IMG/VR virus record: IMGVR_UViG_3300005471_000006
Location: 1 to 47,944 of that record
DNA: 47,944 nucleotides
Source: a virus
Strand: one strand, 5' to 3'
Shown one piece after another: positions 16,287-46,467 of this stretch (the first letter of the stretch is position 1; each line of letters opens with the position of its first letter). Under the pieces are notes generated by a model. That model had not been told where the DNA came from. It did no database searches and saw nothing but the letters and a program-made list of their open reading frames with translations. The position numbers and the translations under genes were made by a program.

Positions 16287-16576
16287 GCCACGACACGGAA
16301 CCGGCGAGCGTGGACAACATCCTCAGCGACGCCGACATCGACGCGACCTATCTGCGCGGCGGGCCGACGCACGCCGAGTTGCTGCGCGACCGCAGGGGGC
16401 GCCAGCTTCTACTTGACGAGGCCATCGACGCACTTGAGGACGCGCTGAGCGCGTTCTCGGGACACGCCGGCAAGGTGAGCGGCAAGCGCATTGACCGATG
16501 GCGCGGCATTCTTGAACGACTGCGCGATCCCCGCCGCGCGCAGGCAACCCCGGAGGATGAACGTGGAGATCGGTGA
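16283..16576 (+). CDS. Hypothetical helical protein (97 aa)
   Basis: GTG 16283 overlaps the previous stop. Acidic N-terminus (DNILSDADIDATYLRG) followed by helices (LLLDEAIDALEDALSAF) and an Arg-rich end. No family. It overlaps the following gene by 14 bp. Confidence 0.62.
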   Translation: MSHDTEPASVDNILSDADIDATYLRGGPTHAELLRDRRGRQLLLDEAIDALEDALSAFSGHAGKVSGKRIDRWRGILERLRDPRRAQATPEDERGDR

Positions 16577-17630
16577 GGAGCGCATGGGGCCGAAGCAGTG
16601 CAAGCCGCCGACGCTCACGCCGGCCTACGTTGCGCTGTACCCGCATCTGTGCGAGGTAGCCCGGCAGCACGGGTACGCGCTGGCCATCCACGGCAGCGTC
16701 GCGCGAGACATGGACCTGGTGGCCGTGCCGTGGACCGATGAAGCGTCCGATTCGTGGACGTTGCGGGACGCCATCGTGGCGCGGCTGCGCATCGCCAATC
16801 CGCACGACCGCAACGTCATCGGCGCGACCGAGCAGAGCTGCAAGCCACACGGCCGCATCGCTTGGGCGATCACGCTTGGCAACGGCGCAGTGCTGGACCT
16901 GTCGGTGGCCACGTTCATTCACGCCAAGCCCGCCACCCCGCCCGCCGCGCCCATCGCCGCGCAGCACGAGTTCTGCCAACACGTCGAGTCAGCTGGCCGC
17001 AACGTCATCGGCGCCAAGGTGTGCGGCAAGCCGATGCCGTGCTGGATGCACGGCAAGGCCATCGCCGCGCAGCACGAGGCGCGGGAGGGCTGTGACGAGG
17101 CTGACGCGCTGGCCGTCGCGCTGTTCCACCCCGACAACGATGCAGCTTGCGACAAGGCGCTGCGCGGCATTGATCTCGTCTGCCACCACGGGCCGGGCTG
17201 CGTGCATCCGGAGATTGCCGGGCCGCATCGGGCGAGGGCGATGTCCCGTGCGGTGCTGCGCAATCGCGTGGCCGTCGCAGTCCGCAAGGCCGTCCGCGCA
17301 GCCGAGGAGCGCGTGCGGGCGGAGTGCGAGGCGGAGAAGTCGAAGGCCGTGGCCGATCAGTGCGCCCTCTGCGACGGCCATGTGGACGAGATGCGGGCCG
17401 AGCGCGACTCGTGGCGCAGGACGTGCGAGAAGCTGACCGGCGAGCGCGACTCCGCCACGGCCGAGCTTGCGCGCGCGCTGCTGGCGCTGGCCGAGGCGGC
17501 GCGGGCCGCATGCGAGGCCGTGGACCGCTGCACCCTCTACGGCCCAGCCGACCAAGCCCGCGAGAAGCTGGCGGCCCTGCGCGCGCTCGTCGCTACCCTA
17601 GACCCACCCACACCGGAGACATCCCCATGA
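16563..17630 (+). CDS. Conserved phage protein with nucleotidyltransferase-like N-terminus (355 aa)
   Basis: The N-terminal ~110 residues contain YALAIHGSVARDMDLVAVPW, a GSxxRDxD pattern reminiscent of the nucleotidyltransferase (MNT) active site and conserved in many phage proteins. The middle has several Cys/His clusters (EFCQHVE, VCGKPMPCWMH, VCHHGPGCVH). The C-terminal third is a long coiled coil (RAAEERVRAECEAEKSK... to about residue 320). The start is uncertain: GTG 16563 has GGAGG 6 nt upstream, while ATG 16557 and 16584 are alternatives. The enzymatic reading is inference; a degenerate, non-catalytic domain is equally possible. Confidence 0.7.
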   Translation: MEIGEERMGPKQCKPPTLTPAYVALYPHLCEVARQHGYALAIHGSVARDMDLVAVPWTDEASDSWTLRDAIVARLRIANPHDRNVIGATEQSCKPHGRIAWAITLGNGAVLDLSVATFIHAKPATPPAAPIAAQHEFCQHVESAGRNVIGAKVCGKPMPCWMHGKAIAAQHEAREGCDEADALAVALFHPDNDAACDKALRGIDLVCHHGPGCVHPEIAGPHRARAMSRAVLRNRVAVAVRKAVRAAEERVRAECEAEKSKAVADQCALCDGHVDEMRAERDSWRRTCEKLTGERDSATAELARALLALAEAARAACEAVDRCTLYGPADQAREKLAALRALVATLDPPTPETSP

Positions 17631-18523
17631 TCGTCGTCAGCAATCACAACGCGAAGTGGCGCGCCCATTTCGAGGCGCAGGTCACGAACGGCCCGGCGCC
17701 CGGCCGCGCCATCCTCGCGTCCATGGGCAAGTATTGGGCGCACCAGAAGGCCACCGTCGCGGCCGACCTGCTCGACTGCCGCGCGAAGTGCCAGACGGCG
17801 TTCATCTGGTTCCGGCCGGAGAAGGAGGACTTCACCAACGGGCTCACGATGGCGGCGCTGCCGAACGATCCGGCCATCAAGGAACTCAACGCGCTGCTGG
17901 CCGTCCACGGCGCGCCGGTCGTGCTGCACCTGCTGTCCGAGTTCGCGCAGTACAAGTCCTACGCGAACGCGACCGGCGCGGAGTTCTGCACGGCGTTCGA
18001 CGCCATCGCGGCGCAGATGCCGAACAACGTCATTTGCGAGGCGAGCATTGAGGGCAACCAGACGGTGGGCATGAAGATCCCGATCTGGGACTTGCCGTCG
18101 TGGCTCCCGAGCAAGGCGCGGCTGGTGGGTGTGGACGCCTTCGCGAAGGGCATGGAGCCGAACACGGCGGCGTACACGCTGAATACCGCCTGGGCGGATC
18201 TGGGCGCCGAGCGCGGGCTGCCGTGCGGGATCGCGGAGTCGGGGTTCAACCACGGCGACGTGACGGACCCGGCGCAGTTCAAGCCGGTCGTGTCGCGCGT
18301 GCTGAAGCTCGCGACGCGGATCAACGCGACGTACCTGACGTTCCTCAACAACGACTGGGGCGGCTACCCAGCGTGGGACTCGGGGCTGTTCACGTCGGAT
18401 CTGCCGGCGTGGGCCGGCTGCCCCGAGGGCGTCACGATGCTGCGCGACAAGCTCACCAAGAGCGGGGCGATGATGACGGCGCCAGCGGTCATTGGTGGGG
18501 TGAAGCCGCTGGTGACGCCATGA
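17627..18523 (+). CDS. GH26-like TIM-barrel glycosidase-like protein (298 aa)
   Basis: ATG 17627 overlaps the previous stop (ATGA). The pattern fits a clan-A (beta/alpha)8 glycosidase near GH26. Strand 4 reads VVLHLLSEFAQY with Glu105 as candidate acid/base, strand 6 LVGVDAFA, and strand 7 LPCGIAESGF with Glu204 as candidate nucleophile; then LTFLNNDWGGYPAWD near the C-terminus. The length suits a single barrel. No signal peptide is visible. A similar arrangement occurs inside the tail-tube B protein (33152-38329). Possible roles: capsule or cell-wall polysaccharide cleavage, an unusual endolysin, or sugar modification inside the cell. Fold call moderate, substrate unknown. Confidence 0.6.
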   Translation: MIVVSNHNAKWRAHFEAQVTNGPAPGRAILASMGKYWAHQKATVAADLLDCRAKCQTAFIWFRPEKEDFTNGLTMAALPNDPAIKELNALLAVHGAPVVLHLLSEFAQYKSYANATGAEFCTAFDAIAAQMPNNVICEASIEGNQTVGMKIPIWDLPSWLPSKARLVGVDAFAKGMEPNTAAYTLNTAWADLGAERGLPCGIAESGFNHGDVTDPAQFKPVVSRVLKLATRINATYLTFLNNDWGGYPAWDSGLFTSDLPAWAGCPEGVTMLRDKLTKSGAMMTAPAVIGGVKPLVTP

Positions 18524-18864
18524 GCGACACCAAGATCGAAGTCGAGTGGACCCTCGACTGCCAAGGCAAGCAGGACTACGACGCCGACATCGTGCGTCTC
18601 AGCAGCCGCTACTACCCGCGCGGCGGTGGCTTCAGCGTGTTCGATACAGGCACCGGCGAGTGGACGGAGAACAGCGCGCACCCCGAGATCCAACCCTGCG
18701 CCTACTCGTCCATCCTTGTCGGCGATGAAGAGGTGGCCGCTAGCGGCCGCGTGGAAGGCGAGACGGAAGCCGATGTCAAGGTCAAGGTCGAAGCATGGGC
18801 GCGCGAGAAGATGGCTGTCGTCATCGCTGCCGTGCGGACTGCGCTCGCGGAGCCAAAGCCATGA
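18520..18864 (+). CDS. Hypothetical protein (114 aa)
   Basis: ATG 18520 overlaps the previous stop. Beta-rich start (IEVEWTLDCQGKQDYDADIVRLSSRYYPRGG split by short loops), an acidic middle (VEGETEADVKVKVEAW) and a helical end. No family is recognised. It lies between the glycosidase-like gene and a small membrane protein gene. Confidence 0.65.
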   Translation: MSDTKIEVEWTLDCQGKQDYDADIVRLSSRYYPRGGGFSVFDTGTGEWTENSAHPEIQPCAYSSILVGDEEVAASGRVEGETEADVKVKVEAWAREKMAVVIAAVRTALAEPKP

Positions 18865-19100
18865 GCAAGCTGACCGCCCTGTGCCTCGGGCTGCTCGTGA
18901 CGCTCGCCGTGCTTGCCGAACACGAGCGCCGCGCCGACCTCGCCAAGATGTACCAGTGGCCGGTCCCGCCGGTTGTGCCCGCCGTCGTGTGGCCGCCGCC
19001 GGACGTGCCGCCGGTCGTGCCGGAGGTGCCGTACATCCCGCGGGAGTATTACGAGCTGGACCCGGTGCATGTGCCGTTCCACGCGGATGAGATGCGATGA
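18861..19100 (+). CDS. Small Pro-rich secreted or membrane-anchored protein (79 aa)
   Basis: ATG 18861 overlaps the previous stop. A hydrophobic N-terminus (LTALCLGLLVTLAVLA) is a signal peptide or anchor. It is followed by a strikingly Pro/Val-rich stretch (PVPPVVPAVVWPPPDVPPVV) and an acidic tail. Such a layout recalls spanin or cell-envelope proteins, but no lipobox is present. Its neighbours are the two putative carbohydrate-active genes. Confidence 0.62.
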   Translation: MSKLTALCLGLLVTLAVLAEHERRADLAKMYQWPVPPVVPAVVWPPPDVPPVVPEVPYIPREYYELDPVHVPFHADEMR

Positions 19101-20143
19101 GCAACCAGTCTCAAGCCTTCGTGCATTCCTACCTCGGCCCGTCTGCTGACTGCCCGCCGACCGACGCCGTGCGCAAGCGCATGCGCGACATCGTGCTCGG
19201 CAAGGCCATCCCGAATCCGCTGGACGCTGGCGCGCAGTCCTCGCCCCGCAACGTACCGGGCAAGTGGCCGCACGCCTACGCGCTTGTCCACGGCGTGGTC
19301 ACGGCCAGCGAGATCGCGGACCGCTTCGGTGAGTGGGTCACGTTCGAGCGCGACAAGCGCGGGCTCGGCAGCGGCGGCCTCTACGCCAGCCCGCTCACGC
19401 ACGTCTACAAATGCACGCATTTCACCGTGACGCAGCACTGGATGATCGGCGCGCTGTCCACGCATCCAGGCGAGCCGGTCCTCTCGCGCACACAGGCGAT
19501 GGAACTCCGGCACCTGATCCTCGGGGACAGCGTGATGGAGCCCGGCTTCGTCGGACCGTCGCGTGCGCTCGGGTGGAGCGGCGACGGGCTCATACTCGAC
19601 TACCTCGCGACGCAGGACCCCGACGCGGCCTCGGCTGCGACGGTGCTGGCGATGCGGCTCTCGCCCGATGGCTGCGATGTGGGCGTGCCGTGGAGCTGGA
19701 AGAACCCGAACGCCGTGAAGGACCCGAACCACCTGTACGAGTGCTCGGCGTGGATGGACGGCACCAACCTGCGGCCGGCCTCCGCGCTCTACAGGCTCAC
19801 CGGCGACGCCGCGATCCGTGACCGGCTCATCCATCTGCTGGCGTGCCTCGCGTACTGCCAGAAGGACGATGGCGGGTTCCACGACGACTGGCAGCCCGGC
19901 AAGCCCGGTGTGTTCCACGACGCGCCCGGCGAGAGCACGGAGCTGTTCATCTGGCCGGGGCTGCACGAGGCGAAGGCCGCGCTGGACGACGAGTGGCCGG
20001 CGTGGGCGGAGACCATGCTCAACGGATGCAAGGGACGGTACATGGCGCTCAACCGCTTCCGGCCAGGCGACACGGGCTTTACCGACTTCACGACGATGGG
20101 GATCGCCATCGCGTGCGCGCCGGCTTGGGGCTGGCGCAGCTAG
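19097..20143 (+). CDS. Large protein of unknown function, helical-hairpin repeats (348 aa)
   Basis: Last gene of the plus-strand operon; its start overlaps the previous stop. Long helical pairs with aromatic loops (GLILDYLATQDPDAASAATVL, IRDRLIHLLACLAYCQKDDG, ELFIWPGLHEAKAALDDEWP) and conserved-looking HxxxxxY, WMDG and DDGGFHDDW motifs suggest an alpha/alpha-toroid such as polysaccharide lyases or hydrolases use. I do not recognise a named family. Together with the TIM-barrel protein three genes upstream it could form a saccharide-processing set. Its TAG shares a CTAG palindrome with the stop of the convergent gene. Confidence 0.75.
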   Translation: MSNQSQAFVHSYLGPSADCPPTDAVRKRMRDIVLGKAIPNPLDAGAQSSPRNVPGKWPHAYALVHGVVTASEIADRFGEWVTFERDKRGLGSGGLYASPLTHVYKCTHFTVTQHWMIGALSTHPGEPVLSRTQAMELRHLILGDSVMEPGFVGPSRALGWSGDGLILDYLATQDPDAASAATVLAMRLSPDGCDVGVPWSWKNPNAVKDPNHLYECSAWMDGTNLRPASALYRLTGDAAIRDRLIHLLACLAYCQKDDGGFHDDWQPGKPGVFHDAPGESTELFIWPGLHEAKAALDDEWPAWAETMLNGCKGRYMALNRFRPGDTGFTDFTTMGIAIACAPAWGWRS

Positions 20144-22048: not shown

Positions 22049-22360
22049 TTACCTCCGGGGATGTTCCCTCTCGCGCTCCGCCACATCGGAGTCGAAGCGT
22101 GAGAAGAAGATGTCTCGCGGTTCGTTCACTTCGCTGGTGGCCTCGACGTGGACGTTCTCGCCGTCGCGGCAGATCCAGTCCACCCAGATCGTGCGCGTGG
22201 CGCGCGTGGCGTCGCGCTGCACGATGTCGCGGATCTCGTCCTGCCCGCTCTTGATCGAGAGCATCCCGACGTACCCGAGGGCTAGCATGCACGCGCAGAT
22301 GACAGCCGCCGCCGTTGCCGGCTGCACCCTGCCGCGCGGGCGATCATTGCCTTCCGTCAT
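22049..22360 (-). CDS. Single-span membrane protein (103 aa)
   Basis: ATG 22360 overlaps the preceding stop. A span AAAVICACMLALGYVGML (about residues 17-34) follows a basic N-terminus (type II topology), then a charged soluble part (DEIRDIVQRDATRATRTIW...). Topology fits an inner-membrane spanin-like or holin-accessory protein, although it lacks a typical long coiled coil. Confidence 0.62.
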   Translation of the reverse strand: MTEGNDRPRGRVQPATAAAVICACMLALGYVGMLSIKSGQDEIRDIVQRDATRATRTIWVDWICRDGENVHVEATSEVNEPRDIFFSRFDSDVAEREREHPRR

Positions 22361-22746
22361 CGACCTGTTCCGTCACCGGCAGTCACCCGGCTTGCCGGCG
22401 GCCACGGGGGCACTTGGATTGTGGGGTTGAGGCGCGAGAAGTCCGACCAGAAACGCCCGATCTCCGACCACAGGAAGCGCATGTCCGTGCCGGTCCAGCG
22501 GTCGGCGAGAGACGCGTTCACGTCGTAGCGCATGGCGCGCATGTCGTCGGCCACCTGCGTGAGCTTGTCGGTGGCCTTGACGACGGCGGCCTCGTTGGTC
22601 TCCAGCCGCGCGGCAATCTCGTGCTGCCCCGACGTGACGCTGAAGTAGATCCCGGCCGCCGAGACAGCCATCACCGCCACGCCGGCCAGCACGGCCCACG
22701 AGAACCATTGGCGGCCTCCCTTGACGAGAATGTCGGAGTCACCCAT
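22357..22746 (-). CDS. Single-span membrane protein with coiled coil (129 aa)
   Basis: Starts MGDSDILVKGGRQWFSWAVL. The span SWAVLAGVAVMAVSAAGIYF (about residues 16-35) is followed by a helical/coiled-coil periplasmic part (HEIAARLETNEAAVVKATDK) and an aromatic, Pro-rich end. This N-in, C-out rod is the layout expected of an i-spanin. Paired with the next gene it could form part of the lysis cassette; homology is not shown. Confidence 0.62.
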   Translation of the reverse strand: MGDSDILVKGGRQWFSWAVLAGVAVMAVSAAGIYFSVTSGQHEIAARLETNEAAVVKATDKLTQVADDMRAMRYDVNASLADRWTGTDMRFLWSEIGRFWSDFSRLNPTIQVPPWPPASRVTAGDGTGR

Positions 22747-24066: not shown

Positions 24067-24908
24067 GTGACCGCGTTCACAAAGACCGAGCCGGAGAGCG
24101 GCGCGATGCCGGCGTGCTTGATCCACAGGCTGCGCGTCTCGACCAAGTTGGCCTCGCGCAGCGGCACGTCCCATGAGGAGTAGGCCGGCACGTAGCCGTG
24201 CGCGTTGCCGCCGTCCGCGCTGTAGATGACGGCTTGGTCGGTGGCGTTGAGGACGGTGATGATCTTGGCCGGCGCGGTGAGCGCCAGCACGAGCGTGAAC
24301 GTGGACGCGACCGAGCCGAATGCGAGCGTGCCAGCGCCGTAGCCGCACTGGACCGCATCCGGCAAGCTAACGCGCCCCTGCACCGTGACCGGCACGCCCT
24401 TGTCCACGCCCTCGATGGGCAGGCCGCCCTTGCCGCCCAGCTTGTCCGGCAACTGGTCGCTGTACGTCTTGGCCTTGCCGCTGACGGCGACGGTGCCGCT
24501 GATCTGCGGCGTGCCGGCCAGCGCGACGACGCCCGTGATGGCCGGCATGCTCGTCACGCCCACGGACGCGCCGGCAGCGAGTGCGACGGGATCGGTGAGC
24601 CCGACCTTGCCCATGACGGTGACGGGCACGCCGCGATCCACGCCCTCGATCTGCATGCCGCCGCCCGGGCCGAGGGTGGCCGGCAACTGCTCACTGCTGA
24701 CCGTGTTGCCCACGTCCTCCGTCAGCGTCACCGGAACCGGCTCGCCCGTGGACGAGCCCTCGATCACGATGCCGGACCCCCGCCCGCGCGCCGTGTCGAT
24801 GCGCTCCGTCGCCTCGGCCGTCCGGCGCGTGTTCCGCTCGATCGGGTCGAAGCGGTTGCGCCAGAACTCCATCGCCTTCTTCGTGAACTGGAGGAGGGAG
24901 TTGGTCAT
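24063..24908 (-). CDS. Probable fibre/decoration protein with internal repeats (281 aa)
   Basis: ATG 24908 overlaps the stop of the giant ejection protein. The helical N-terminus (MTNSLLQFTKKAMEFWRN) may attach to the virion. The middle contains two diverged copies of IEGVDxGVPVTVxGxV with preceding QLPxxLG (encoded at 24615-24689 and 24381-24454), and a third partial copy EPVPVTL. The C-terminal ~100 residues form a beta domain (TLVLALTAPAKIITVLNATDQ). The build resembles baseplate or fibre proteins. Confidence 0.66.
   Translation of the reverse strand: MTNSLLQFTKKAMEFWRNRFDPIERNTRRTAEATERIDTARGRGSGIVIEGSSTGEPVPVTLTEDVGNTVSSEQLPATLGPGGGMQIEGVDRGVPVTVMGKVGLTDPVALAAGASVGVTSMPAITGVVALAGTPQISGTVAVSGKAKTYSDQLPDKLGGKGGLPIEGVDKGVPVTVQGRVSLPDAVQCGYGAGTLAFGSVASTFTLVLALTAPAKIITVLNATDQAVIYSADGGNAHGYVPAYSSWDVPLREANLVETRSLWIKHAGIAPLSGSVFVNAVT
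24381..24454. repeat. Imperfect repeat, copy A (pair with 24615-24689)
   Basis: About 74 bp coding for QLPDKLGGKGGLPIEGVDKG and following residues is closely similar to 24615-24689, which encodes QLPATLGPGGGMQIEGVDRG. The similarity is both nucleotide and protein level, indicating internal duplication within the fibre-like gene. Confidence 0.6.
24615..24689. repeat. Imperfect repeat, copy B (pair with 24381-24454)
   Basis: Second copy of the duplicated module in the fibre-like gene. Shared blocks include CACGCCCTCGAT and GGCAACTG. Divergence is mostly in the linker around Gly-rich residues. Confidence 0.6.
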
Positions 24909-27900
24909 CGGATGCGCCTCGGCGGGCCGGTCACGATCGCCGCCGGACTTGCGCGGCCCTCCATCGCGCGCTCCAAGCCGCGCCACATCTCGATCGCCTG
25001 CGCCGTGGGCAGCCACGCGACCGTGCCGACGAGCGACGTCATCGCCTGCAAGTCGCGCTCGCTGATCTGCCCATCGTCGATGCCACGGACCGCGTGCCCG
25101 AAGTCACCGATCACCGACAGGCTGCCGGGCCCGCCGTAGTTGTCGTACCGCGCTGCCGCCACAAGGTCGCGCGCCCACGCCACGCCGCCCGCGAGGTTCG
25201 CCGCCGCGTCCTTCGCCGTGGACCACCAGAACGGATCGGTATTGTCGTCGTCGCGGACGAAGCGGTTGTACGCCTGCTGCACGGCCGCCGGCACGCCGAA
25301 CAGGATCACGGCCGTCGCGCCCAGCCGCACGAGGCCGGCCGCGCTCTTGTCGGTCATGTTCGCGCGGCGCACGCCGAGGTTGATCGTGCGATTGAGGAAG
25401 CCCATGAACAGGGTCATGTACTTGTGGTCGCGCATGATCGCCGGCACGTCGGCGGGGAAGCCCGATCCCTGATAGTCCTTGACCGCCTGCTCCGCGATGC
25501 GGACGGCGTCCACGGCGGAGTGCCCCTCGGCCAGCGCCTTGCGCTTGGCGACGCGGTAGGTCGGCAGGTCCACCCACAACTGGACCGCCGCCATCGGCAT
25601 CATCGGCAACTCGCGCAGCTTGCCGGTGTCGAATCGCTTGTTGAGCGTGGCGCGGATGTCGATCTGCTCGCGGCTGGCGGCCACGCCGCGCGTCTCCATC
25701 GTTGACGACTCGGCCCACATCTCGCGCACGGCGGCACCGAAGCCGGACGGGTCGAGCGAGAGTTGCGCGGCTTCCTTCAGGACTTCGGGGCCCAGCCCCT
25801 CGACGCTGTTGGCGAGGCCGGTTGCGTTGAGCACCTGCGTCCCGACCTTGAAGCCGAGCTTGGCGATGATCGTGCCGGTGCGGAGGTAGTTGGCGAGTTG
25901 CTCGCCGCTGGACTGGCGCTTGAGGTGCCCGCCCGCGAGCGCGGCCATCGCGTCCTTGAACTGGTCGTAGACTTCCTGCCCGTGGCGCTCAATGATGGCC
26001 TTCTGCACGGCGCTCTGGCGCAGGACGTAGTTGATGTCGTACAGCCGCTCGGTCAGAGCCAGCGCCGTCGCGGCCTCGCCAGCGCCCTCCATGACGACGC
26101 CGAAGTCGTAGCGAAGCTCCCGCGTCACGTTCTGCTGCCGCTCGAATCGAGCGCCGAGACGGACCGTGGAGCGGACGGCGGCGCCGCGCGCTAGGTCGCC
26201 AGCGATCTCCTCAACCGTCTGCTGGGCCGCGCGCTCACCGAAGTGCTTGATCTTGGAGTAGCCGCCCGACAGGTCCAGCGTCTCGCCGGCATCGGTCGTG
26301 ATCGTGAACGGCAGCGCCTCGACCTTCGGCGGGACCACGCCGTAGTTGCGCTGCATGTGGTCCTTCAACTCGGGCCACGACTCGTTGCTGAACCGCCACG
26401 TCTCGTTCAGCCAGTGCGCGTCGGCGGCCGTCATCGTGCGCTTGATGGCGTCGATCTCGGACTCGCTGAACGTGTTGCGGTTCTGCTGCCGGCCGCTCTC
26501 GTGCCCTTCGTACAGCACGACCATCAAGCGGTTCTCGTGCGACAGCGGGCGCGAGACGCCCTTCACGGGCTGCTTGCTGCCCATCGTGGCCTTCTCGCGC
26601 GCGCTGAACTCCGCGAAGGCCGGCTTCCACGACTTGTTCATCGCCACGCGGCGCTGCTCAAGATCGGCCTCGCCTTCGTTGCGCGGGAACAGGATGGCCT
26701 TCGCCAGCGGCCCGCCAGGCCCGCCGTCGATCTCGAACACGTAGCGGTCGATGGGCGAATGCTCGGCGGCGAACTTCTGCGGCCACGTCGGCTTGCCTTG
26801 GAACTCGCGGTCCGGCTTCGGGTGGCTGGCCTCGACCTGCGCCGTGACGGTCGCGGCGCGGTCCAGCAGGTTGTCCGTCGCGCCCTTCGCGTGCGCGTTG
26901 CTGCGGTCGCGGCCGATCTCGTACATGGACTCAACCGAGACGCGGAGGTCGTGGAGTTGGTCGCCGGTGAGCTTGGTCCAGTCGTTCGCGCGCTCGGCCT
27001 TGATCCACTCGGCCACGAAGGGGATGAACACGTTGCCGTCCGTGCCGGCTTGCTTTTCGAGGTCCGCGAGCCAGTCGGCAATCGGCTTGGTCTCGGCCGC
27101 CTCGTCGGGCCGGATGGAGCCGAGTCCGAAGCGCGCGGCGAGCATGTTGACCTGATTGCGCCACTCGCCGCCGGCCTTGCCGAGCGCAACCTGCCGGCCC
27201 TCGGACCGCGGGGCGATGATGGCGCGCGTGTCCTTACCCGCCTGCGTCACCGTGCGGACCGCCTCGCGGTGGATCTCGCTTTGCACGAGCGCGTTGCCGA
27301 GCGCCTGCGCGGCCTCAAGGTGGTCGCCAACGCGCGCGCGGTCGCGTGCCATGGTGCGGGCCTTGCGCTCGGCCTGCCGGTACTTGTACGGCTTGATCTC
27401 GCCCACGGGCATGGCTGCGATCTTGTCGTCGGCGACGGTGCGGGCCTCGGCCTGCGTGGGGATGGCGTCGTAGGCGGCGCGGCGCTGGGCCTCCTCGGCG
27501 GCGGCCTTGACCTTCTCGGCGCCCACGGCTGCCTTGACCGCCGGCTGCGCCTTGCGGTCCAGCCCCTTGAGCGCCTTGATCTCCGCTTCCGTGATCTTGC
27601 CGCGATCCGTCTCGGCCACGGCGCGGCGGGCCTCGGCGCGCTTGCGCTCGGGGTCGAGGTAGAGGTCGGGGTGCTCGGTCGCGAGCCGGCGGCGCGCGGC
27701 AGCGTCGATGACTTCCTCGCGTCCGGCGGTGAGCGTGTTGAGCAAGTCGCCCGCGGACGGGAAGCCGAACACCTCGGCGGCGGCCTGCGCGGACAGGCCC
27801 TCGTCGGCCACGACGCCGGACTTCTCCAGCGCGGCGACGGTGTCCTTGTCGTACTCCGCGGCCAGCGTGGCGCGGTCGAGCTTGATGTCATCGTGCAACC

Positions 27901-30900
27901 GCGCCCACGCGACGCCGGCCGGCGACTCGTCATAGCGGCGGGCTTCCTCGGCGGTGAGGTTGGCCAGCGTGGCGGCCTTGCGCTCGCGCTGCTCGCTCTT
28001 GAGGTCGGCCATGACCTTGCGGGTCATCTTCTCGCGCGCCGCGTCGCCGGCCTCCGCGATGAGCTTCTGGTTCGCGTCCCACAGCGCGAGCGCGGCGTGG
28101 TCGTTCTTCGTCTCGGCTGCGACTTCCTCGCGCGTCATCACGGGCTGCCCGCCGTGCTCCGCTTCGGCGGCGGCGATCTCCGCGTCGGTGGCGAGCATGC
28201 GGTCGAAGACATCGCGCAACTCGGGATTGAGCTTGTCCACGCCGATGTGCGCGCGGATCGCCTCGTATACGCGGAGCATGATGTCGCGCATCGTCGCGAA
28301 GGCGCGCCGCAGCGCGGGACTCGGCGCCTCACCCTTGAACAGGTAGGCGACGAAGGCGTCCGCGATGTCCTCGTGCCGCCCGATAGTCAGGTCTGAGGCA
28401 TACTTGTCAGCGCCCGTCGCCTGCTTCAGGTCGGCCCACATTTGGCGCAGCCCTTCGGGGGCCTCCTTGTCAGCAGCGAGTGTGCGGATGACATCGACCA
28501 TCCAGTGAGCCGACTCGTGCAGCGCCGTTGTCGCGTTCGCCGTCTCGAACATGTGGGCCACGCGGTGCAGGAGCGAATAGGCCCCATGCTCGCCCTGCCG
28601 CATCGCGCCGGCGGGCGCCGCCGACTTGGCAAACCTCACCATGAGCGCGTCCCACTTCGCCGCCGGCACCTCGGGGAAGCGGGCCTTCATCGTCTGCACG
28701 AAGCCGGACAGGATGCGGGCGACGGCGCGGGCTTCCTTGGCCGGCCGGCCGGCTGACCTGACCGCAGCTTCCAGCTTGGCCGTCAGCTTCGCCGTCTCGG
28801 TCTGGCTGCCGGCCTGCCGGTCGCGGATGTCGGCCAGCTCGCGTAGCGTCGCCGCGGTGCCGGCGGGGTCGCGGGCGGCGGACTGAGCAAGCGGCTCGGT
28901 GATGGCAGCGAGGACAGGTGCGCTACCACCACCGGCCGGCGCGTTGGGCGCTCCAGTCGCCCTCTCGGGCGGCGGGCTCAGGATACCCCGCACCGCCTCC
29001 GCAGCGGGAGCCGCTTCCTTGCCCAGCAGCCGCCCGACCACGCCGGGGGCGGCGGGGGCGGCCTCGATGGCGTCGGCAACGGCGCGGAGGGTGTCGCCGG
29101 GCTGTGACCCAGCGGTGATTTTCTGATCATTCTCCGATGATCCCGGCTTCGCTTCCTCAGCCGGCGCCGCTTCACCCTCCGGGCGCGCCGCCTGAAACAG
29201 CAGGTCCGCCCCCTCGGGCACGCCGAGCTTGGCGGTCAGCACGGCCGCCCGAGACTCGTCCTCCGCCGCCTGCACGGGGTCCGGCTCGGCCACCGGCTCG
29301 GCAGCCGCGGCTTCCTCAGCCGCCTTCTGGCGGGCCTTGGCCGACTCCTGCGCCTCGGTCAGCGTCAGCCCGCCCGGCCGGACCGTCGCGTGCTCCAGTA
29401 GGGCGTCCGCGATGGGGTCGTCCGGCAGGACCGCCATGGCCCGCTCGTACGGCACCTCCACCACGCCCGTCCGTGCGGCCTCCTCGTAGGCTCTGCGGCC
29501 TCCGGACAGCCGCTCGGCCTCCACGGCCGGCACGCGCCCGGCGCCCACCACAGCCGCGTCAAAGCCCTCCCGGTTGATGTAGACCGTCGGCACCTCGGCG
29601 CCCTCGGCCTGCGAGCGGACCAGCGCCTCGAACCGCTCCTGGTTCCGCGTCCGTACCTTGGTCTCGCCGGCCGCCTTGACGGCCTCGGTCAGTTGGGCGT
29701 GGTCGGCCACGGCCAGCACCTCGGCCATGCGGGCCTCGTGCTCCACGAACCGGGCCGCCTCGGCGTGCTGGGCCGCCCCGACCGCCCCGTGGACCACGAA
29801 CGGCAGCGCCGCGCCGGCCGCACCGGCGATCTCGGACCCGATCTCGGCCCCCGTCGGCAGCTTGCCCGTGGCCGTGGCCGTCCCGGCGAGGTTCGCCGCC
29901 GCCATGGCGCCAGTCTGGACGGCCATCTCCTTGGCCGCCGCGCCGACCGTCACGCCGCCGGCCTTCTCGAACGCCGCCCCCGGCGGGAACAGCCCTTGCA
30001 GCGCCATGAGGACGCCCGCGTTGACCGCGCCGCCCTTGAAGGCCGCCGCCCGGACGCGGGCCACCTTCTCGGGGTCGCGGAGGAACGCCGCCACAGCCTT
30101 GGGGTCGGTCAGGTCCACTTCGGACCCCAGCAGGCTGCTCGCCAGCCCGCCCGCGCTCGTGATCCCCAGCCCCGTGAACAGGCCCAGCCGGGCCCCAACC
30201 ACCGCCGCGTGCGCCTCGACCAGCCCGCCCGCCGTCCCGAACACCGGCGCCAGCGGGCCCGAGACGGCCGCCAGCCCCTCCAGTGTGCCGGCCAGCGGCG
30301 CCCCCGCCGCGGCGCCCGTCGCCCCGCCAGCGAACGAGCCCGCGATGGCCGGCGCGATGCCGACCAGCCCGCGCGTCGCGTCGAAGGCGTAGCCCTTGAT
30401 GCCCTCCGGCCGCAGCCCGCCCACGGCACGGCGGGCCTTCTCGGCGGTCGTGATCCCGTCCGCCGCCCAGTCCGGCGGCTGGTTGAGCACGATGGCCGCC
30501 AGCACGCGCGTGCCCACGTCGGCATCCATCACGCCCGCAGCGATGCCGGGCCCGAGGATCGCTTGGCGGGCTTCCTTGTGCCCGCCGATGGCCCGCTCGA
30601 CCGCCGCGAGCCGGCTCACGTCGTCGTGCGCGATGGCCGCGTTGTGCGGGTCGGTGAGCCACGCCGGCAGGTGCCGCGTCTGGCGCAGCGCCACGTCGGC
30701 GCCGTTGGCCACGTCCGTCGCCTGCTGCGGGCGGGCCCGGAGCGCAGCCGCGGCGGCTTCCGGAGCGGTGCCGAGCTTGTCGGCCAGCTTGAGCGCGGTC
30801 GCGTGCTGGTCGGGGTTCGTGGTCCCCATGACGCCGATGGCCGCGCTCGCACGGGCGCGCGCGATGGCCAGCGGATCGTCGATGTTGTCAGTGCCCGGCA

Positions 30901-30901
30901 T
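24905..30901 (-). CDS. Giant internal virion/ejection protein, T7 gp16-like position, with HExxH motif (1998 aa)
   Basis: Third of three consecutive genes that match the T7 internal core order (gp14, gp15, gp16). Likely released into the cell at infection. The N-terminal ~330 residues include long Gly/Ala-rich hydrophobic segments (FAGGATGAAAGAPLAG and others) that could cross membranes. Around residues 525-720 there is an Ala/Pro/Glu-rich linker. LHESAHWMVDVI at residues 794-805 gives an HExxH zinc-protease motif (H795, E796, H799). Long charged coiled coils follow to about 1300, then a segment with SRPLSHENRLMVVL and EGHESGRQQNRNTFS, and a conserved-looking helical C-terminus. This resembles large polyvalent proteins of phages. 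No lytic transglycosylase motif was identified. ATG 30901 overlaps the preceding stop by 14 bp. Confidence 0.78.
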   Translation of the reverse strand: MPGTDNIDDPLAIARARASAAIGVMGTTNPDQHATALKLADKLGTAPEAAAAALRARPQQATDVANGADVALRQTRHLPAWLTDPHNAAIAHDDVSRLAAVERAIGGHKEARQAILGPGIAAGVMDADVGTRVLAAIVLNQPPDWAADGITTAEKARRAVGGLRPEGIKGYAFDATRGLVGIAPAIAGSFAGGATGAAAGAPLAGTLEGLAAVSGPLAPVFGTAGGLVEAHAAVVGARLGLFTGLGITSAGGLASSLLGSEVDLTDPKAVAAFLRDPEKVARVRAAAFKGGAVNAGVLMALQGLFPPGAAFEKAGGVTVGAAAKEMAVQTGAMAAANLAGTATATGKLPTGAEIGSEIAGAAGAALPFVVHGAVGAAQHAEAARFVEHEARMAEVLAVADHAQLTEAVKAAGETKVRTRNQERFEALVRSQAEGAEVPTVYINREGFDAAVVGAGRVPAVEAERLSGGRRAYEEAARTGVVEVPYERAMAVLPDDPIADALLEHATVRPGGLTLTEAQESAKARQKAAEEAAAAEPVAEPDPVQAAEDESRAAVLTAKLGVPEGADLLFQAARPEGEAAPAEEAKPGSSENDQKITAGSQPGDTLRAVADAIEAAPAAPGVVGRLLGKEAAPAAEAVRGILSPPPERATGAPNAPAGGGSAPVLAAITEPLAQSAARDPAGTAATLRELADIRDRQAGSQTETAKLTAKLEAAVRSAGRPAKEARAVARILSGFVQTMKARFPEVPAAKWDALMVRFAKSAAPAGAMRQGEHGAYSLLHRVAHMFETANATTALHESAHWMVDVIRTLAADKEAPEGLRQMWADLKQATGADKYASDLTIGRHEDIADAFVAYLFKGEAPSPALRRAFATMRDIMLRVYEAIRAHIGVDKLNPELRDVFDRMLATDAEIAAAEAEHGGQPVMTREEVAAETKNDHAALALWDANQKLIAEAGDAAREKMTRKVMADLKSEQRERKAATLANLTAEEARRYDESPAGVAWARLHDDIKLDRATLAAEYDKDTVAALEKSGVVADEGLSAQAAAEVFGFPSAGDLLNTLTAGREEVIDAAARRRLATEHPDLYLDPERKRAEARRAVAETDRGKITEAEIKALKGLDRKAQPAVKAAVGAEKVKAAAEEAQRRAAYDAIPTQAEARTVADDKIAAMPVGEIKPYKYRQAERKARTMARDRARVGDHLEAAQALGNALVQSEIHREAVRTVTQAGKDTRAIIAPRSEGRQVALGKAGGEWRNQVNMLAARFGLGSIRPDEAAETKPIADWLADLEKQAGTDGNVFIPFVAEWIKAERANDWTKLTGDQLHDLRVSVESMYEIGRDRSNAHAKGATDNLLDRAATVTAQVEASHPKPDREFQGKPTWPQKFAAEHSPIDRYVFEIDGGPGGPLAKAILFPRNEGEADLEQRRVAMNKSWKPAFAEFSAREKATMGSKQPVKGVSRPLSHENRLMVVLYEGHESGRQQNRNTFSESEIDAIKRTMTAADAHWLNETWRFSNESWPELKDHMQRNYGVVPPKVEALPFTITTDAGETLDLSGGYSKIKHFGERAAQQTVEEIAGDLARGAAVRSTVRLGARFERQQNVTRELRYDFGVVMEGAGEAATALALTERLYDINYVLRQSAVQKAIIERHGQEVYDQFKDAMAALAGGHLKRQSSGEQLANYLRTGTIIAKLGFKVGTQVLNATGLANSVEGLGPEVLKEAAQLSLDPSGFGAAVREMWAESSTMETRGVAASREQIDIRATLNKRFDTGKLRELPMMPMAAVQLWVDLPTYRVAKRKALAEGHSAVDAVRIAEQAVKDYQGSGFPADVPAIMRDHKYMTLFMGFLNRTINLGVRRANMTDKSAAGLVRLGATAVILFGVPAAVQQAYNRFVRDDDNTDPFWWSTAKDAAANLAGGVAWARDLVAAARYDNYGGPGSLSVIGDFGHAVRGIDDGQISERDLQAMTSLVGTVAWLPTAQAIEMWRGLERAMEGRASPAAIVTGPPRRIR

Positions 30902-32678
30902 CTGGCAGCCAGTCCTCGGTCGTCAGCTTGAACGCGTATCGCCGCAGCACTTCCTCGCGCGTCACCGGAGCGCCCGCGCGCTGGATCTGGTCCACGATGC
31001 CCACGAGGTCGGCCGGCGGGATCACGCCGCCCATCTCGGTCGAGAGGTCAACCGCCGTTCCGAACTTGCTCTTGTCGCGCCACGCGGACGGGTCCATGAG
31101 CACGGACGCGCTCAACTCGTCGGCGATCTTCTTCGCCTGATCCGTCGTCACCGGATTCTTCTGCTGGCTTTGCGCCCAGCGGATCGCGTCGTCGTACGCG
31201 CGCTTGAACTTGCCCGACTTCTTGCTGCGCTCGTCGTCGTCGCTGACGGTGTCCTTGCTGTAGAGCACGCTGGCCGCCTGCGACCCGATCTCGTCCGGCG
31301 ACAGCGTGCCCACGCCGAGCTTCTGCTTGCTCTTGATCTTCTCGGCCAGCACCTCGGCCGACTTCGCGGACAGCCCCGAGCCGACCTTGGTCCGCGGGTC
31401 GATCTGCCCGACTTCCTCGGGCGTGGCCTTGCTGATCGCGTTGTCCACCTCGTCGTAGACCGCATCATCGGTCACGGCGAGGTCGATGCGGTTGTTCGCG
31501 ATGCCCTTGAGGCCGCGAGCCTTGTCCGGGTGATTGTCCTCAAGCCACTGGAACGTGGCGTCCTTCGTCATGTCGGTCGCGTTGCCGCCTTGCTGGAGGT
31601 ACGTGTCCCATGCGTCGAACACGTCGCCGGCCGTCTTATTGTCCGTCGCTCGCGCGCCATCGCCCATGTCGTCGATGATGCCGGACGCCCGCGCGCGTTC
31701 CTTGTCCGAAAGTCCCTTCGGCAGCGCGGCCTTCGCGGCAGCGACTCGCGCGCTGATCGTGTCGCCCTTGGCGAACGTCCACGCCGTCGCCGTCGCGCGC
31801 TGGCTGGTGCCGATGGAGTAGGCGTTCTCAACCTTCGGCCCCAAGTCCTCGATATCGTCCGCGGACAGGCCAGCCTTGTGCTTCTCGAAATACGCCTTGG
31901 CAGTCTGGTCGTCGCTGCGCGCCAGCAGGCCCTTGATGACCGACGCGTTCGCGTCCTCGTTCCAGATGGCATCGGCGTGGGCGACGTAACTCGCCTGATC
32001 GGTGTCCAACTTGTCCGGATGCGCCTCGGCAAACTTCACATTCGCTGCGTGTGCCGCGTCGCGGTAGGGCTGGATCACGCGCTCGTCAAGGATGTACGGC
32101 GCGTCGCTGCCGGTGTCGCCGCCGGAGATTCCAACGACTCCAGCCGGCAGGCTCGGCGTCTGGCTCGCGCTCACACCACCGTTGGACACGGCCAGCGTGA
32201 TGCTCTTGTTGAACGATCCGAGGAGCCGCTGGTTGGCTTCGACCGACCGCTTCCAGATGAGCGGCTCAACGTGGTCCGTCGCCTGCCGCGCGAGGTTCGC
32301 CTTGATCTGCCGCGCGTTCTGCTCCGCAGCGGTCCGCGCTTCGGGCGATGTGATGCGCGACAGCCGCTCGGACACGGCCTCGTCGTAGGCCGGAAGCAAC
32401 TGCTCGTAAGCCTGCTGCGCCGCCGGACCGTCCTTGGAATGGAGATCCTGGTACAGCCCGTCCGCGAAGTCATTGATGTCGGCCGTGGCCTCGAACTCGG
32501 ACGCTTGATCCGCCTGCTTCTTCGCCTTGATCGCCTCGTCCGCCAGCACGCCCCCGATGCTTGACACGCCCGCCGCCACGCCGCCGCCCTGCGACAGCGC
32601 GGACACGTCGGCGGACTGGTACGGCGCCGCGAGCGGCTGGGCGGCGACCTGCTGCGACTTCAGGACGGGCACTTGCAC
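30888..32678 (-). CDS. Internal virion/ejection protein, T7 gp15-like (596 aa)
   Basis: Long, mainly helical protein. The N-terminus MQVPVLKSQQVAAQPLAAPY is typical of podovirus internal core proteins, followed by ASxxGGVLADEAIKAKKQADQ and repeated helical blocks with many Asp/Lys/Ala. Positioned between a gp14-like and a gp16-like gene with 2-bp and overlapping junctions. Predicted to form part of the channel through which DNA is ejected. Sequence similarity to gp15 itself is weak; the assignment rests on order, size and composition. Confidence 0.72.
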   Translation of the reverse strand: MQVPVLKSQQVAAQPLAAPYQSADVSALSQGGGVAAGVSSIGGVLADEAIKAKKQADQASEFEATADINDFADGLYQDLHSKDGPAAQQAYEQLLPAYDEAVSERLSRITSPEARTAAEQNARQIKANLARQATDHVEPLIWKRSVEANQRLLGSFNKSITLAVSNGGVSASQTPSLPAGVVGISGGDTGSDAPYILDERVIQPYRDAAHAANVKFAEAHPDKLDTDQASYVAHADAIWNEDANASVIKGLLARSDDQTAKAYFEKHKAGLSADDIEDLGPKVENAYSIGTSQRATATAWTFAKGDTISARVAAAKAALPKGLSDKERARASGIIDDMGDGARATDNKTAGDVFDAWDTYLQQGGNATDMTKDATFQWLEDNHPDKARGLKGIANNRIDLAVTDDAVYDEVDNAISKATPEEVGQIDPRTKVGSGLSAKSAEVLAEKIKSKQKLGVGTLSPDEIGSQAASVLYSKDTVSDDDERSKKSGKFKRAYDDAIRWAQSQQKNPVTTDQAKKIADELSASVLMDPSAWRDKSKFGTAVDLSTEMGGVIPPADLVGIVDQIQRAGAPVTREEVLRRYAFKLTTEDWLPDAGH

Positions 32679-33151: not shown

Positions 33152-36100
33152 CTACACCTCCGCCCTCGGGTACAGGCCCTCCACCAGCATCGGCAGCGGG
33201 TCCGTCTGCCGGATCACGATAGACGACTTCAGCTTGCTGCTGCTCCGCATCTTGCACGTCGCCTTGCCCGAGAACAGCGCCACCGGGTCGCTCGTCAGCA
33301 CCGGCGTCTCGCGCATCGGCACCAGCACGCCCCCGTCGCTCGGGCCGAACTTCGCCCCGCGCGTCCGGTGGACGATGGCCGTCACCTCCGCAGGCCGCAC
33401 CATCTTGCCCGCGATCTTGCCGTCGGGCACGTCGAGGTCCAGCGTCTCGATCTCGGCCGAGATGTAGATGCCGAACTGGATGATTCCGAGCGGCTTCTGG
33501 AAGAACACCGCCCCGTTCGCCACCGCCACAGTCGGCTGCCGGATGCCGTCGCCCAGCACGTTGAGGATGCGGCCCTCCAGCCGCGACAGGCCGGTGTAGG
33601 TCCGGACCATCTTGGTCCAGACCGTCGCCGCGATGCCCGCCGCCAGCCGGTCGGTGCAGTCCTGCTGGAACTCGACCGTCACCTGCGACGTGCTCGTGAA
33701 GCCGGTCACGAACACCTCGACCGTGTCGCCCGTCACGGGGTCCGTGAGCCGGTAGCCCGTCAGGCCCACGTCCACCGCCGCGCTCGTGAACAGCGCGAGG
33801 TGTGCGTTGGTCGCCAGCGTGGCGCTCGTGCCCGCGAGGTACGTGCTGCCGCCCGTGAGCGTCAGCGTGATGTCCAGTGCCGGGTCGATGATCGGATGCA
33901 GCCACTCCGGGTGCTCGCTGTTCCGCCCGTCCCACGTCAGGCCCGAGTCCACGAAGAACGAATCCAGCGACTCGTCGTAGTCCGTCTCCTCGCCGGCCTT
34001 GCGCGGGCGCATGCGCTCGATGTTGCGCACCGTCGTCGGCCCCGTCGTCTCGGCCGACAGCCCCTGATTCGTGCGCCAGTCTTTGAGCAGCGAGAGCCCG
34101 TCGGCCGTGAGCCAGTGCCCCTCGCGCACGAACGCCAGCCACTTCGCGAGGAAGAACTTGTTGCTGCCGAGGTAGGCGTTGAGCCAGAACGTCGGGCTGC
34201 CCGCGTAGCCCGTGAAGCTGTAGTCGTAGCCGAGGTAGCGGACCATCTTCACGATGGGGTAGCGGGCGAGGAAGTCCAGCCACGGCCCCATCCAGATGCG
34301 CCACATGTTCGCGGCGCTGGCCTCGGCCAGATCATCGTCCTCGCCGCCGTTGTCCTCGTCCGGCAGCAGGTCGGGGATCTGCGAGCCGGCAGCGACCGTC
34401 TCACCGAAAAACACCGGCTTGTTGCGGCCCTCCGCGAACTCCAGCAGCGACACGAGCGAGAGGTTCTTCGGAGTGCCCTCTTGGAACTCCGCGGCGTCGA
34501 ACGGGTCGATGCCGATCCAGTCCACCGACGCGTCGCCCGGATACCAGAGCGACCAGTCCGTGACGGTCGGGGACGGCAGCACGCTCCAGCACGTCGCGAC
34601 CTTGTTGAAGCTGCTGGCCGTCTGCGCGTTGGCGATGGACCGGACGTAGAGCCGCGCCGCCGCGAAAGCCGCGGGGAAGTCGTCGCGGTGGTAGCCCTGC
34701 GAGACGAGGTTCGCTTCGCCCGCGAACAGCAGCATCACGGGCTTGTTGTACTTGCCCAGCGCCACGCCCAGCGCCGCGAGCTGCGCGAGGATGCCCGCGT
34801 ACTGGTCGGCCGGCGCCGCGTCCGCGATGATCGTGTCCACGCCGACGTTCGGGAACTGCACTTGGTCGATGAGCGTCGCGTGCATCTGCGCAAGCTGGCC
34901 GTTCGCGTCGGACGCCTGCAAGTCCGCCAGAATCTCCGCCTCGGACAGCGTCATCGACCAGTAGTTGATATCGCCCGTCACGACGGTGAAGTCCATGATC
35001 TGGCTGGCCGGCACCGTGATCGTGGACGTGCCCTGCAACTGGAACGAGACGCCCGCGACCACGTTGATGGCCGTGAAGACCTTGGCCTCCAGCGTCGCCT
35101 CGAACGTCGCTTGCACAGCGCCGGCCGTCTTGGTGACGTCCACCACGAGGATCTTCGTGCCGCTCGCCGGGGGCGTCGCGGTCGTGACGAGGATGTTCAG
35201 GTTGGCGCCGCCCACGCCAGCCCCCGCGCCGCCAGAGAGCGCCTTGTCGAAGTACGCCGTGCCCAGCGTGCCGGGCCATGACGGCAGCGTGCCGCGGCGG
35301 CGGAAGTCCGCCTGCTGCGTCGCCGGCACGGTGATGCCCGACGTGCCGGCCAGCGTGAACGATACGCCCGCGTTCTCGGTCGCGACGAGGTAGAAGTGGC
35401 CCTCAAGCAGCGCCTCGAACACCAAGTCCGGTGCCCCCGCGCTCGGGTCCACGTCGATGATCTCGATCCACGAGCCGACGGGGTAGGTCGTCGCGCTCGT
35501 GATGGTGATGTTGACGCCCGCGCCGCCGGACAGCGCTTTGTTCAGGATGGTCGTGCCCGGCGCACCGTAGGCCGGCTCGCCGTGCGACGCCGACGTGGCG
35601 CCGATGTTCAGGATCGCGCCCGCCGTGGCCGGCGCGCTCACGATGTTGCCGGCCTTGATGAAGACAGGCCGGTGAGTCGCCGGCACCGTGATCCCGCTCG
35701 TGCTGGCGAGCTCGAAGTGCTGGCTCGCCTTGCCCGTCACCGTGAACGTCTGGCCGAGCAACGCATCCCTGAAGACGCCGTTCGGCTGCGTCGCGCCGGT
35801 CATCACACCGTTCAGCGCCGTGCCGATGAAGCCGTCGGCGTTGGCCACCCAGACGTTCGTGCAGACGACGGAGTCGCCGTTCTCGACCGCCGGCAGGAAC
35901 GAGTTGACCTGCACGTTGCCGCTGCCCGACGCGGTGGTCGCGTCCGCCGTGGACGGGATGAACGCGTGGATGCTGTTCTGGTGCAGCGCGCGGATGGCCA
36001 GGTTATCGGCCGCGAAGTACCCGAGGCCCATCATCACGTAGCCGTCCGGCGGCTCGTACTTCGCGGCGTACTTGTAGACCGGGTTGATCGTGCGGTTCAC

Positions 36101-45993: not shown

Positions 45994-46467
45994 CTACGCC
46001 ACGGGCGCCGGCACTTCAAGGCGCTTCCGGTAGCACCGGCCCACTTCGACCCACCCAGCGCGCGTGTACGTCACGCAGGCGGCCTCGGACGGGTCACCGA
46101 GGCTCGTGCCGGACGTGAAGCTCCGCGCCCCTGCGTCGCGCGCGTGGGCCTCGGCAACGGCCAGCAGGCGGGACGAGTGCCCAGCGCCGCGGTACTCCGG
46201 CGCGACGTACAGCGCCAGTTCGCTCGCGGTCGGCACGCCGCTCCACGAGTCGGGCGCCACGAGGTAGGCCATGAAGCCCGCCACCGCGCCGCCCTCGATG
46301 TCCACCACCAGCAGCGTCCCGGCCGCGACCAGCCGGTAGGCCACAGTCGCCACCCGCTCGGCGTCCAGCGGCACGTCGCGCAGGGCGGGGGCGGCGGACC
46401 ACATGCGCTGGGCAAGGCGCAGCACGGGGGCGATGTCGGCGTCGGTCGCGCGGCGGATGATCGTCAC
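45994..46467 (-). CDS. GNAT-family N-acetyltransferase (157 aa)
   Basis: Acetyl-CoA-dependent acetyltransferase fold. Motif A is LALYVAPEYRGAGHSSRLLAV (about residues 75-95) with the RGxG pyrophosphate loop; the N-terminal strand is TIIRRATDADIAPVLRLA, and motif B is near YTRAGWVEVGRCYRKRL. Full-length single domain. GTG 46467 overlaps the previous stop. Similar genes occur next to portal genes in several podoviruses; the substrate is unknown, perhaps a virion or host protein. Confidence 0.82.
   Translation of the reverse strand: MTIIRRATDADIAPVLRLAQRMWSAAPALRDVPLDAERVATVAYRLVAAGTLLVVDIEGGAVAGFMAYLVAPDSWSGVPTASELALYVAPEYRGAGHSSRLLAVAEAHARDAGARSFTSGTSLGDPSEAACVTYTRAGWVEVGRCYRKRLEVPAPVA

Follow-up and report, generated by a model that had tools for sequence, protein, structure and literature searches.

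A predicted divergent GH26-like glycosidase encoded by a free-standing orphan gene in a phage with a GH26-like tail domain

For most phage genes, no function has been assigned. The locus described here raises two questions about such a gene: (i) is its 298-aa product, encoded in a plus-strand operon, a glycosidase of the GH26 type and (ii) how is it related to a GH26-like domain carried by the tail protein of the same phage. GH26 enzymes include β-mannanases, lichenases and β-1,3-xylanases. The DNA examined, referred to here as the window, is one virus record of 47,944 bases.

The free-standing gene and its operon

The gene at positions 17627–18523 (plus strand), whose product we refer to as P0001, is genuine. 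Its ORF runs for 298 codons from an ATG; it shares the four bases ATGA (17627–17630) with the end of the upstream gene and a second ATGA (18520–18523) with the start of the downstream gene. In this frame the G+C content of third codon positions is 0.85, computed on the longer ORF 17324–18523, and no other plus-strand gene has a coding score as high as its 141. The landmarks named in the original prediction all fall at the positions claimed in the translation: LLSEF at residues 102–106 (containing Glu105), VGVDAFA at 167 and GIAESG at 201–206 (containing Glu204). No hydrophobic leader or membrane helix is found in P0001, where hydropathy peaks at 1.52 at residue 89.

The coupled upstream gene (16563–17630, plus strand; longest ORF 16491–17630) encodes 355 aa, with an N-terminal part matching phrog_35913, a family of unknown function, and a charged, probably coiled C-terminal part with a weak match to phrog_4565. 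Downstream, the coupled gene at 18520–18864 (plus strand) encodes 114 aa with no family found in the family search, and 18861–19100 (plus strand) encodes a 79-aa protein whose N-terminal part includes a hydrophobic stretch and whose tail is rich in Pro. The next gene, 19097–20143 (plus strand), encodes a 348-aa orphan that weakly resembles the GH127 catalytic domain. Its Pfam match to GH127 is sub-threshold (E 0.32), and against a nine-member GH127 profile it scores 31.3 by HHalign over 64 columns, a helical-hairpin signal, compared with control maxima of 22.2 (60 shuffles) and 21.7 (100 ORFs). A GH88 identity was rejected for this product, as its score of 16.6 is noise. Judged from these matches, the product of 19097–20143 may be another soluble carbohydrate-active enzyme, the second in this operon, with an α/α barrel.

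Ordinary searches leave P0001 an orphan. No Pfam family matches at E up to 10, the PF02156 (GH26) cut-off is not reached, NCBIfam gives no match and the sole PHROGs match is at 0.17; no glycosidase match appears in any of the three collections. None of the PADLOC anti-phage defence models matches at E up to 0.1, and a defence-protein identity was rejected on this basis. Searches by tblastn found no homologue in 50,697 phage records or in 72,556 plasmids, the latter with two traN matches (E 0.8) put down to chance. Peptide-pattern scans of IMG/VR and GTDB contigs recovered no relatives, and the seven IMG/VR loci with the VGVDAFAK codon pattern are all unrelated to P0001. Among portal-related viral records (44 of 80 covered) there was one match, to a capsid gene, and the genomes of 50 of 80 portal-bearing bacterial loci gave four matches with E > 0.01; all were judged to be chance. 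No homologue was found in 398 Pseudomonadota genomes or in 300 genomes of one order, and an alignment search with the tail domain as query returned none either.

The tail-borne domain and its relation to P0001

The tail protein (33152–38329, minus strand; 1725 aa) matches phage tail protein families (phrog_376, E 6.9e-138) and is matched by 136 phage records. In the best of these matches the aligned pieces extend from residue 1–11 to the C-terminus and cover only about half of the protein, which carries a long insertion between parts common to phage tail proteins. It is far longer than its annotated relatives (e.g. 2013–2403 bases), and the extra part contains, besides the GH26-like domain, what look by eye to be repeated β-rich segments. 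This extra part may replace a separate tail fibre.

That the tail protein contains a GH26-like domain, as originally proposed, is borne out. Residues 1119–1410 (34100–34975, minus strand) match the solved GH26 β-1,3-xylanase 2ddx (E 2.8e-9), resemble many viral GH26 proteins by phmmer and score 86.1 by HHalign against a 44-member GH26 profile. The landmarks are FAGEA (Glu1205), WIGIDPF from residue 1271 and FFGET (Glu1310). This domain is also without a Pfam match at E up to 10, and the PF02156 model therefore misses this branch. No relatives of the domain were found in the phage records or in 44 portal-related viral records. Four of 299 genomes searched give matches. One match is clearly to a GH26 relative; that at locus L178 looks like chance.

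The tail domain and P0001 share the order of their landmarks, a spacing of about 100 residues between the two Glu (99 in P0001 versus 105 in the tail domain, in line with the original prediction) and the lack of a His before the acid/base Glu. They differ in that the tail domain is recognizable from its sequence and is inserted in a tail protein, whereas neither applies to P0001. The alignment of P0001 to the tail region is non-significant by BLAST and by single-sequence HHalign, and Smith–Waterman scores under five scoring schemes lie within the shuffle range. The resemblance of the motifs is by itself not beyond chance, and exceeds chance only against a deep GH26 profile. We reject the idea that P0001 is a duplicate of the tail domain, as pairwise similarity is absent. 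Of the proposal that the phage carries two copies of a rare fold, the GH26-like tail domain and a probable remote GH26-like P0001 stand, but 'copies' does not, for want of detectable mutual similarity, and 'rare' is overstated because one IMG/VR scan alone returned 35 GH26-encoding viral loci. None of the 35 stretches around those loci carries two GH26 ORFs.

Profile comparisons, residues and predicted structure

A deep profile was assembled from bacterial GH26 domains, collected via PF02156 (11 of 249 genomes) together with the domain from locus L177, and from viral domains at the 35 IMG/VR loci. Four of the 35 viral domains (L207, L213, L216 and L229) and three of the 16 bacterial domains (L181, L189 and L192) were left out before profile building, and the remaining 44 (31 viral, 13 bacterial) were iteratively aligned, with neither P0001 nor the tail domain included. 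As a single sequence, P0001 scores 31.2 against this profile by HHalign (P 3.6e-4), over 137 columns and residues 76–221, with an HHalign probability of only 37%. This score is reached by none of 150 shuffles (maximum 21.2) and by none of 823 natural ORFs (150 + 673; maximum 22.6), the latter being stop-to-stop frames of 260–420 aa with non-coding frames included. In the HHalign register, the 'hE' motif pairs its E with Glu105 and 'KP..I.E' pairs its last E with Glu204. By hmmsearch, P0001 scores 8.1 bits, and the top score in 1000 shuffles (803 reported) is 7.4. The phage-only profile of 31 members gives a score of 31.7 (at most 21.2 in 100 shuffles), and the bacterial-only profile of 13 members gives 17.5, which is within noise.

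These scores bear on whether P0001 is a glycosidase at all. It might be an orphan α/β protein in which the order of motifs is coincidental, and the lack of any homologue, the non-significant pairwise scores and the failure of an earlier 17-sequence GH26 profile (−2.0 bits, inside the shuffle range) are what would be expected of such a protein. Against this stands a profile score above all 973 controls, extending over 137 columns in one register, and we regard a coincidence of this kind as distinctly unlikely.

The specificity of the signal can be judged from related and unrelated barrels. P0001 scores 17.6 against a GH5 profile (shuffles up to 20.7) and 11.1 against a GH25 profile (shuffles up to 18.1), both of which are noise, and a GH25-type lysozyme identity was rejected on the latter value. 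Conversely, none of 30 GH25 proteins exceeds 16.4 on the GH26 profile. As far as such profile scores can tell, the P0001 signal is not a generic barrel signal. GH5 belongs to the same clan as GH26, and two of 28 GH5 proteins score at least 30 on the GH26 profile (34.1 and 30.2); clan membership of P0001 is for this reason firmer than family membership. P0001 could then be a glycosidase with a clan GH-A barrel of another family, GH5-like or undescribed, rather than one that is specifically GH26-like. The two GH5 scores imply that the GH26 score is as much a sign of the clan as of the family, and the GH26 His–Glu pair is missing in P0001, but its own score on the GH5 profile is noise, and we consider this assignment unlikely. 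On the profile evidence, P0001 is likely a remote member of clan GH-A, and nearest to GH26 among the three families tested.

Residue-level comparison was made in an alignment of 28 rows, comprising P0001, the tail domain and 26 viral GH26 domains (from 26 of the 35 loci). Glu105 (codon 17939–17941, plus strand) faces the invariant acid/base Glu of GH26, with Glu in 27 of the 27 other rows, and Glu204 (codon 18236–18238, plus strand) faces the nucleophile Glu, present in 26 of 27. Four MAFFT strategies give the same register for both. When controls are aligned by MAFFT with GH26 proteins, however, 5 of 150 shuffles and 3 of 89 unrelated ORFs also place both Glu on the catalytic columns, and the MAFFT register is therefore weak evidence by itself. 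Beyond the two Glu, Pro161 of P0001 is invariant in the alignment, Gly168, Asp170 and the aromatic residue at 172 are as in the family and Pro199 is kept.

Differences occur around the acid/base Glu. A His directly before this residue is a hallmark of the GH26 family. P0001 has Ser104 at this position, where His is commonest (15 of the 27 other rows) and the tail domain has Gly. Four residues before the Glu, P0001 has His101 where Arg is commonest, and the W-x-W that follows the acid/base Glu in the family is missing. The likeness to GH26 thus consists of profile similarity, both Glu in register, a modelled barrel, Pro161, the G-x-D-x-aromatic motif and the Pro before the nucleophile strand; the departures are Ser for His, His for Arg, no W-x-W, no Pfam or NCBIfam match and no homologue found. 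Because the His is missing and a family match is absent, P0001 is not assigned to GH26 as a member on its sequence. The same altered neighbors of the catalytic site (Ser104, His101 and the missing W-x-W) would suit a protein that keeps a GH26-like fold but is no longer an enzyme, serving instead in glycan binding or as a structural component. We think this improbable, since P0001 retains both Glu and the Gly-x-Asp-x-aromatic motif and the tail domain likewise lacks the His.

Structure prediction is compatible with the remote relationship. From the single sequence, AlphaFold gives an uninformative model with a pLDDT of 42.9 and a pTM of 0.36, for which a fold search returned unrelated chains. 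With the 28-row, GH26-seeded alignment the pLDDT rises to 70.4 and the pTM to 0.76, and strands alternate with helices in the resulting model. Its strands lie at 27–32, 58–63, 98–102, 135–140, 166–170 and 200–204, so that Glu204 ends a predicted strand; residues 244–264 and 280–298 have pLDDT < 50. The PDB chains closest to the model are GH26 enzymes, with 2ddx on top (Z 23.4, rmsd 3.2, 267 residues). The same entry is thus nearest to P0001 by model and to the tail domain by sequence. A Foldseek comparison of the model with viral models returned weak glycoside hydrolase matches. An alignment of GH26 proteins pushes the prediction toward that fold, and the seeded model is therefore not proof of it; it shows that the P0001 sequence tolerates a GH26 barrel, rather than that the barrel is proven.

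Function and comparison with other viral enzymes

The existence of the gene, the remote relation to GH26 and the register of both Glu are supported by computation, and the barrel is modelled from an alignment biased toward it. Taking these together, we favor, with reasonable but by no means full confidence, the interpretation that P0001 is a free-standing, leaderless GH26-type (clan GH-A) (β/α)8 glycosidase, diverged beyond ordinary sequence recognition, with the following catalytic roles and an action at lysis. Glu105 follows strand 4 and would serve as acid/base, and Glu204 closes strand 7 and would be the nucleophile of a retaining mechanism acting on a β-linked polysaccharide. The lack of a leader and translation from an accessory plus-strand operon lead us to propose that P0001 would accumulate in the cytoplasm of the infected cell and, once freed at lysis, would act on host exopolysaccharide, with the tail-borne GH26-like domain presumably acting on a surface glycan at entry. 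The putative intracellular location suggested in the original prediction fits the missing hydrophobic leader, and the division of labor that it envisaged between tail-borne and free-standing enzymes is plausible; the release and superinfection control that it named are candidate functions. If the activity is borne out, one phage would carry two glycosidases of the same fold class, one bound to the tail and one soluble, and the roles in entry and dispersal would be separable by deletion of each gene.

Other gene products are candidates for cutting the cell wall, since a weak Rz-like spanin match (22357–22746, minus strand) and an endolysin-like virion protein of 596 aa (30888–32678, minus strand), which matches endolysins only weakly (phrog_10475, E 4e-7), are encoded nearby. 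The latter gene sits where relatives have their structural lysozyme. Also on the minus strand, 24905–30901 encodes a 1998-aa virion-region protein with an N-terminal Pfam LPD22 domain and, in the middle part, the sequence HESAH, which by eye resembles an HExxH motif, and a GNAT acetyltransferase gene (45994–46467) lies between the portal and terminase genes; a GNAT acetyltransferase adjoining the terminase is also annotated in the phage isolate ctQRb9.

An extension of the proposed lysis-time action would have three enzymes attack one host glycan: the tail GH26-like domain at entry, and the soluble GH26-like barrel and the (α/α)-barrel enzyme of 19097–20143 freed at lysis, stripping that same glycan from debris and neighboring cells so that progeny spread. 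This arrangement is speculative, and we would not expect it to hold. Were it correct, P0001 would found an undescribed glycosidase family.

The main functional rival is an auxiliary metabolic role, in which P0001 would be a glycosidase that aids use of environmental polysaccharide by the host or from the lysate, rather than acting on the envelope. Soil viruses do encode glycoside hydrolases: a viral GH5 endomannanase is reported to be active in vitro (PMC6786970), and a GH26 mannanase is listed among viral CAZymes of mangrove soil (PMC6460857). Two features argue against this role, namely that P0001 lacks a secretion leader and that the phage also has a GH26-like domain on its tail, which suggests an envelope glycan as the target. 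We regard an auxiliary metabolic role as doubtful, and retain release at lysis as the preferred reading.

The case shows how a motif order read by eye can lead to a relation that is missed by the Pfam, NCBIfam and PHROG models and recovered by a custom profile. If the activity is borne out, a distant branch would be added to the GH26-type enzymes, and soluble glycosidases in phage accessory operons would appear to be under-counted. GH26 is also listed among viral CAZymes in a further report (PMC11656804), and no report of a phage with both tail-borne and free-standing GH26 forms was found in the open literature searched. A further comparison is with the glycoside hydrolases treated as viral auxiliary metabolic genes, which include, besides the GH5 endomannanase, a chitosanase with measured activity (PMC9485262). 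Those enzymes are reported to have been recognized from sequence and shown to be active (PMC6786970 and PMC9485262), whereas P0001 is a prediction to which neither applies; what unites them is the presence of glycoside hydrolase genes on viral contigs.
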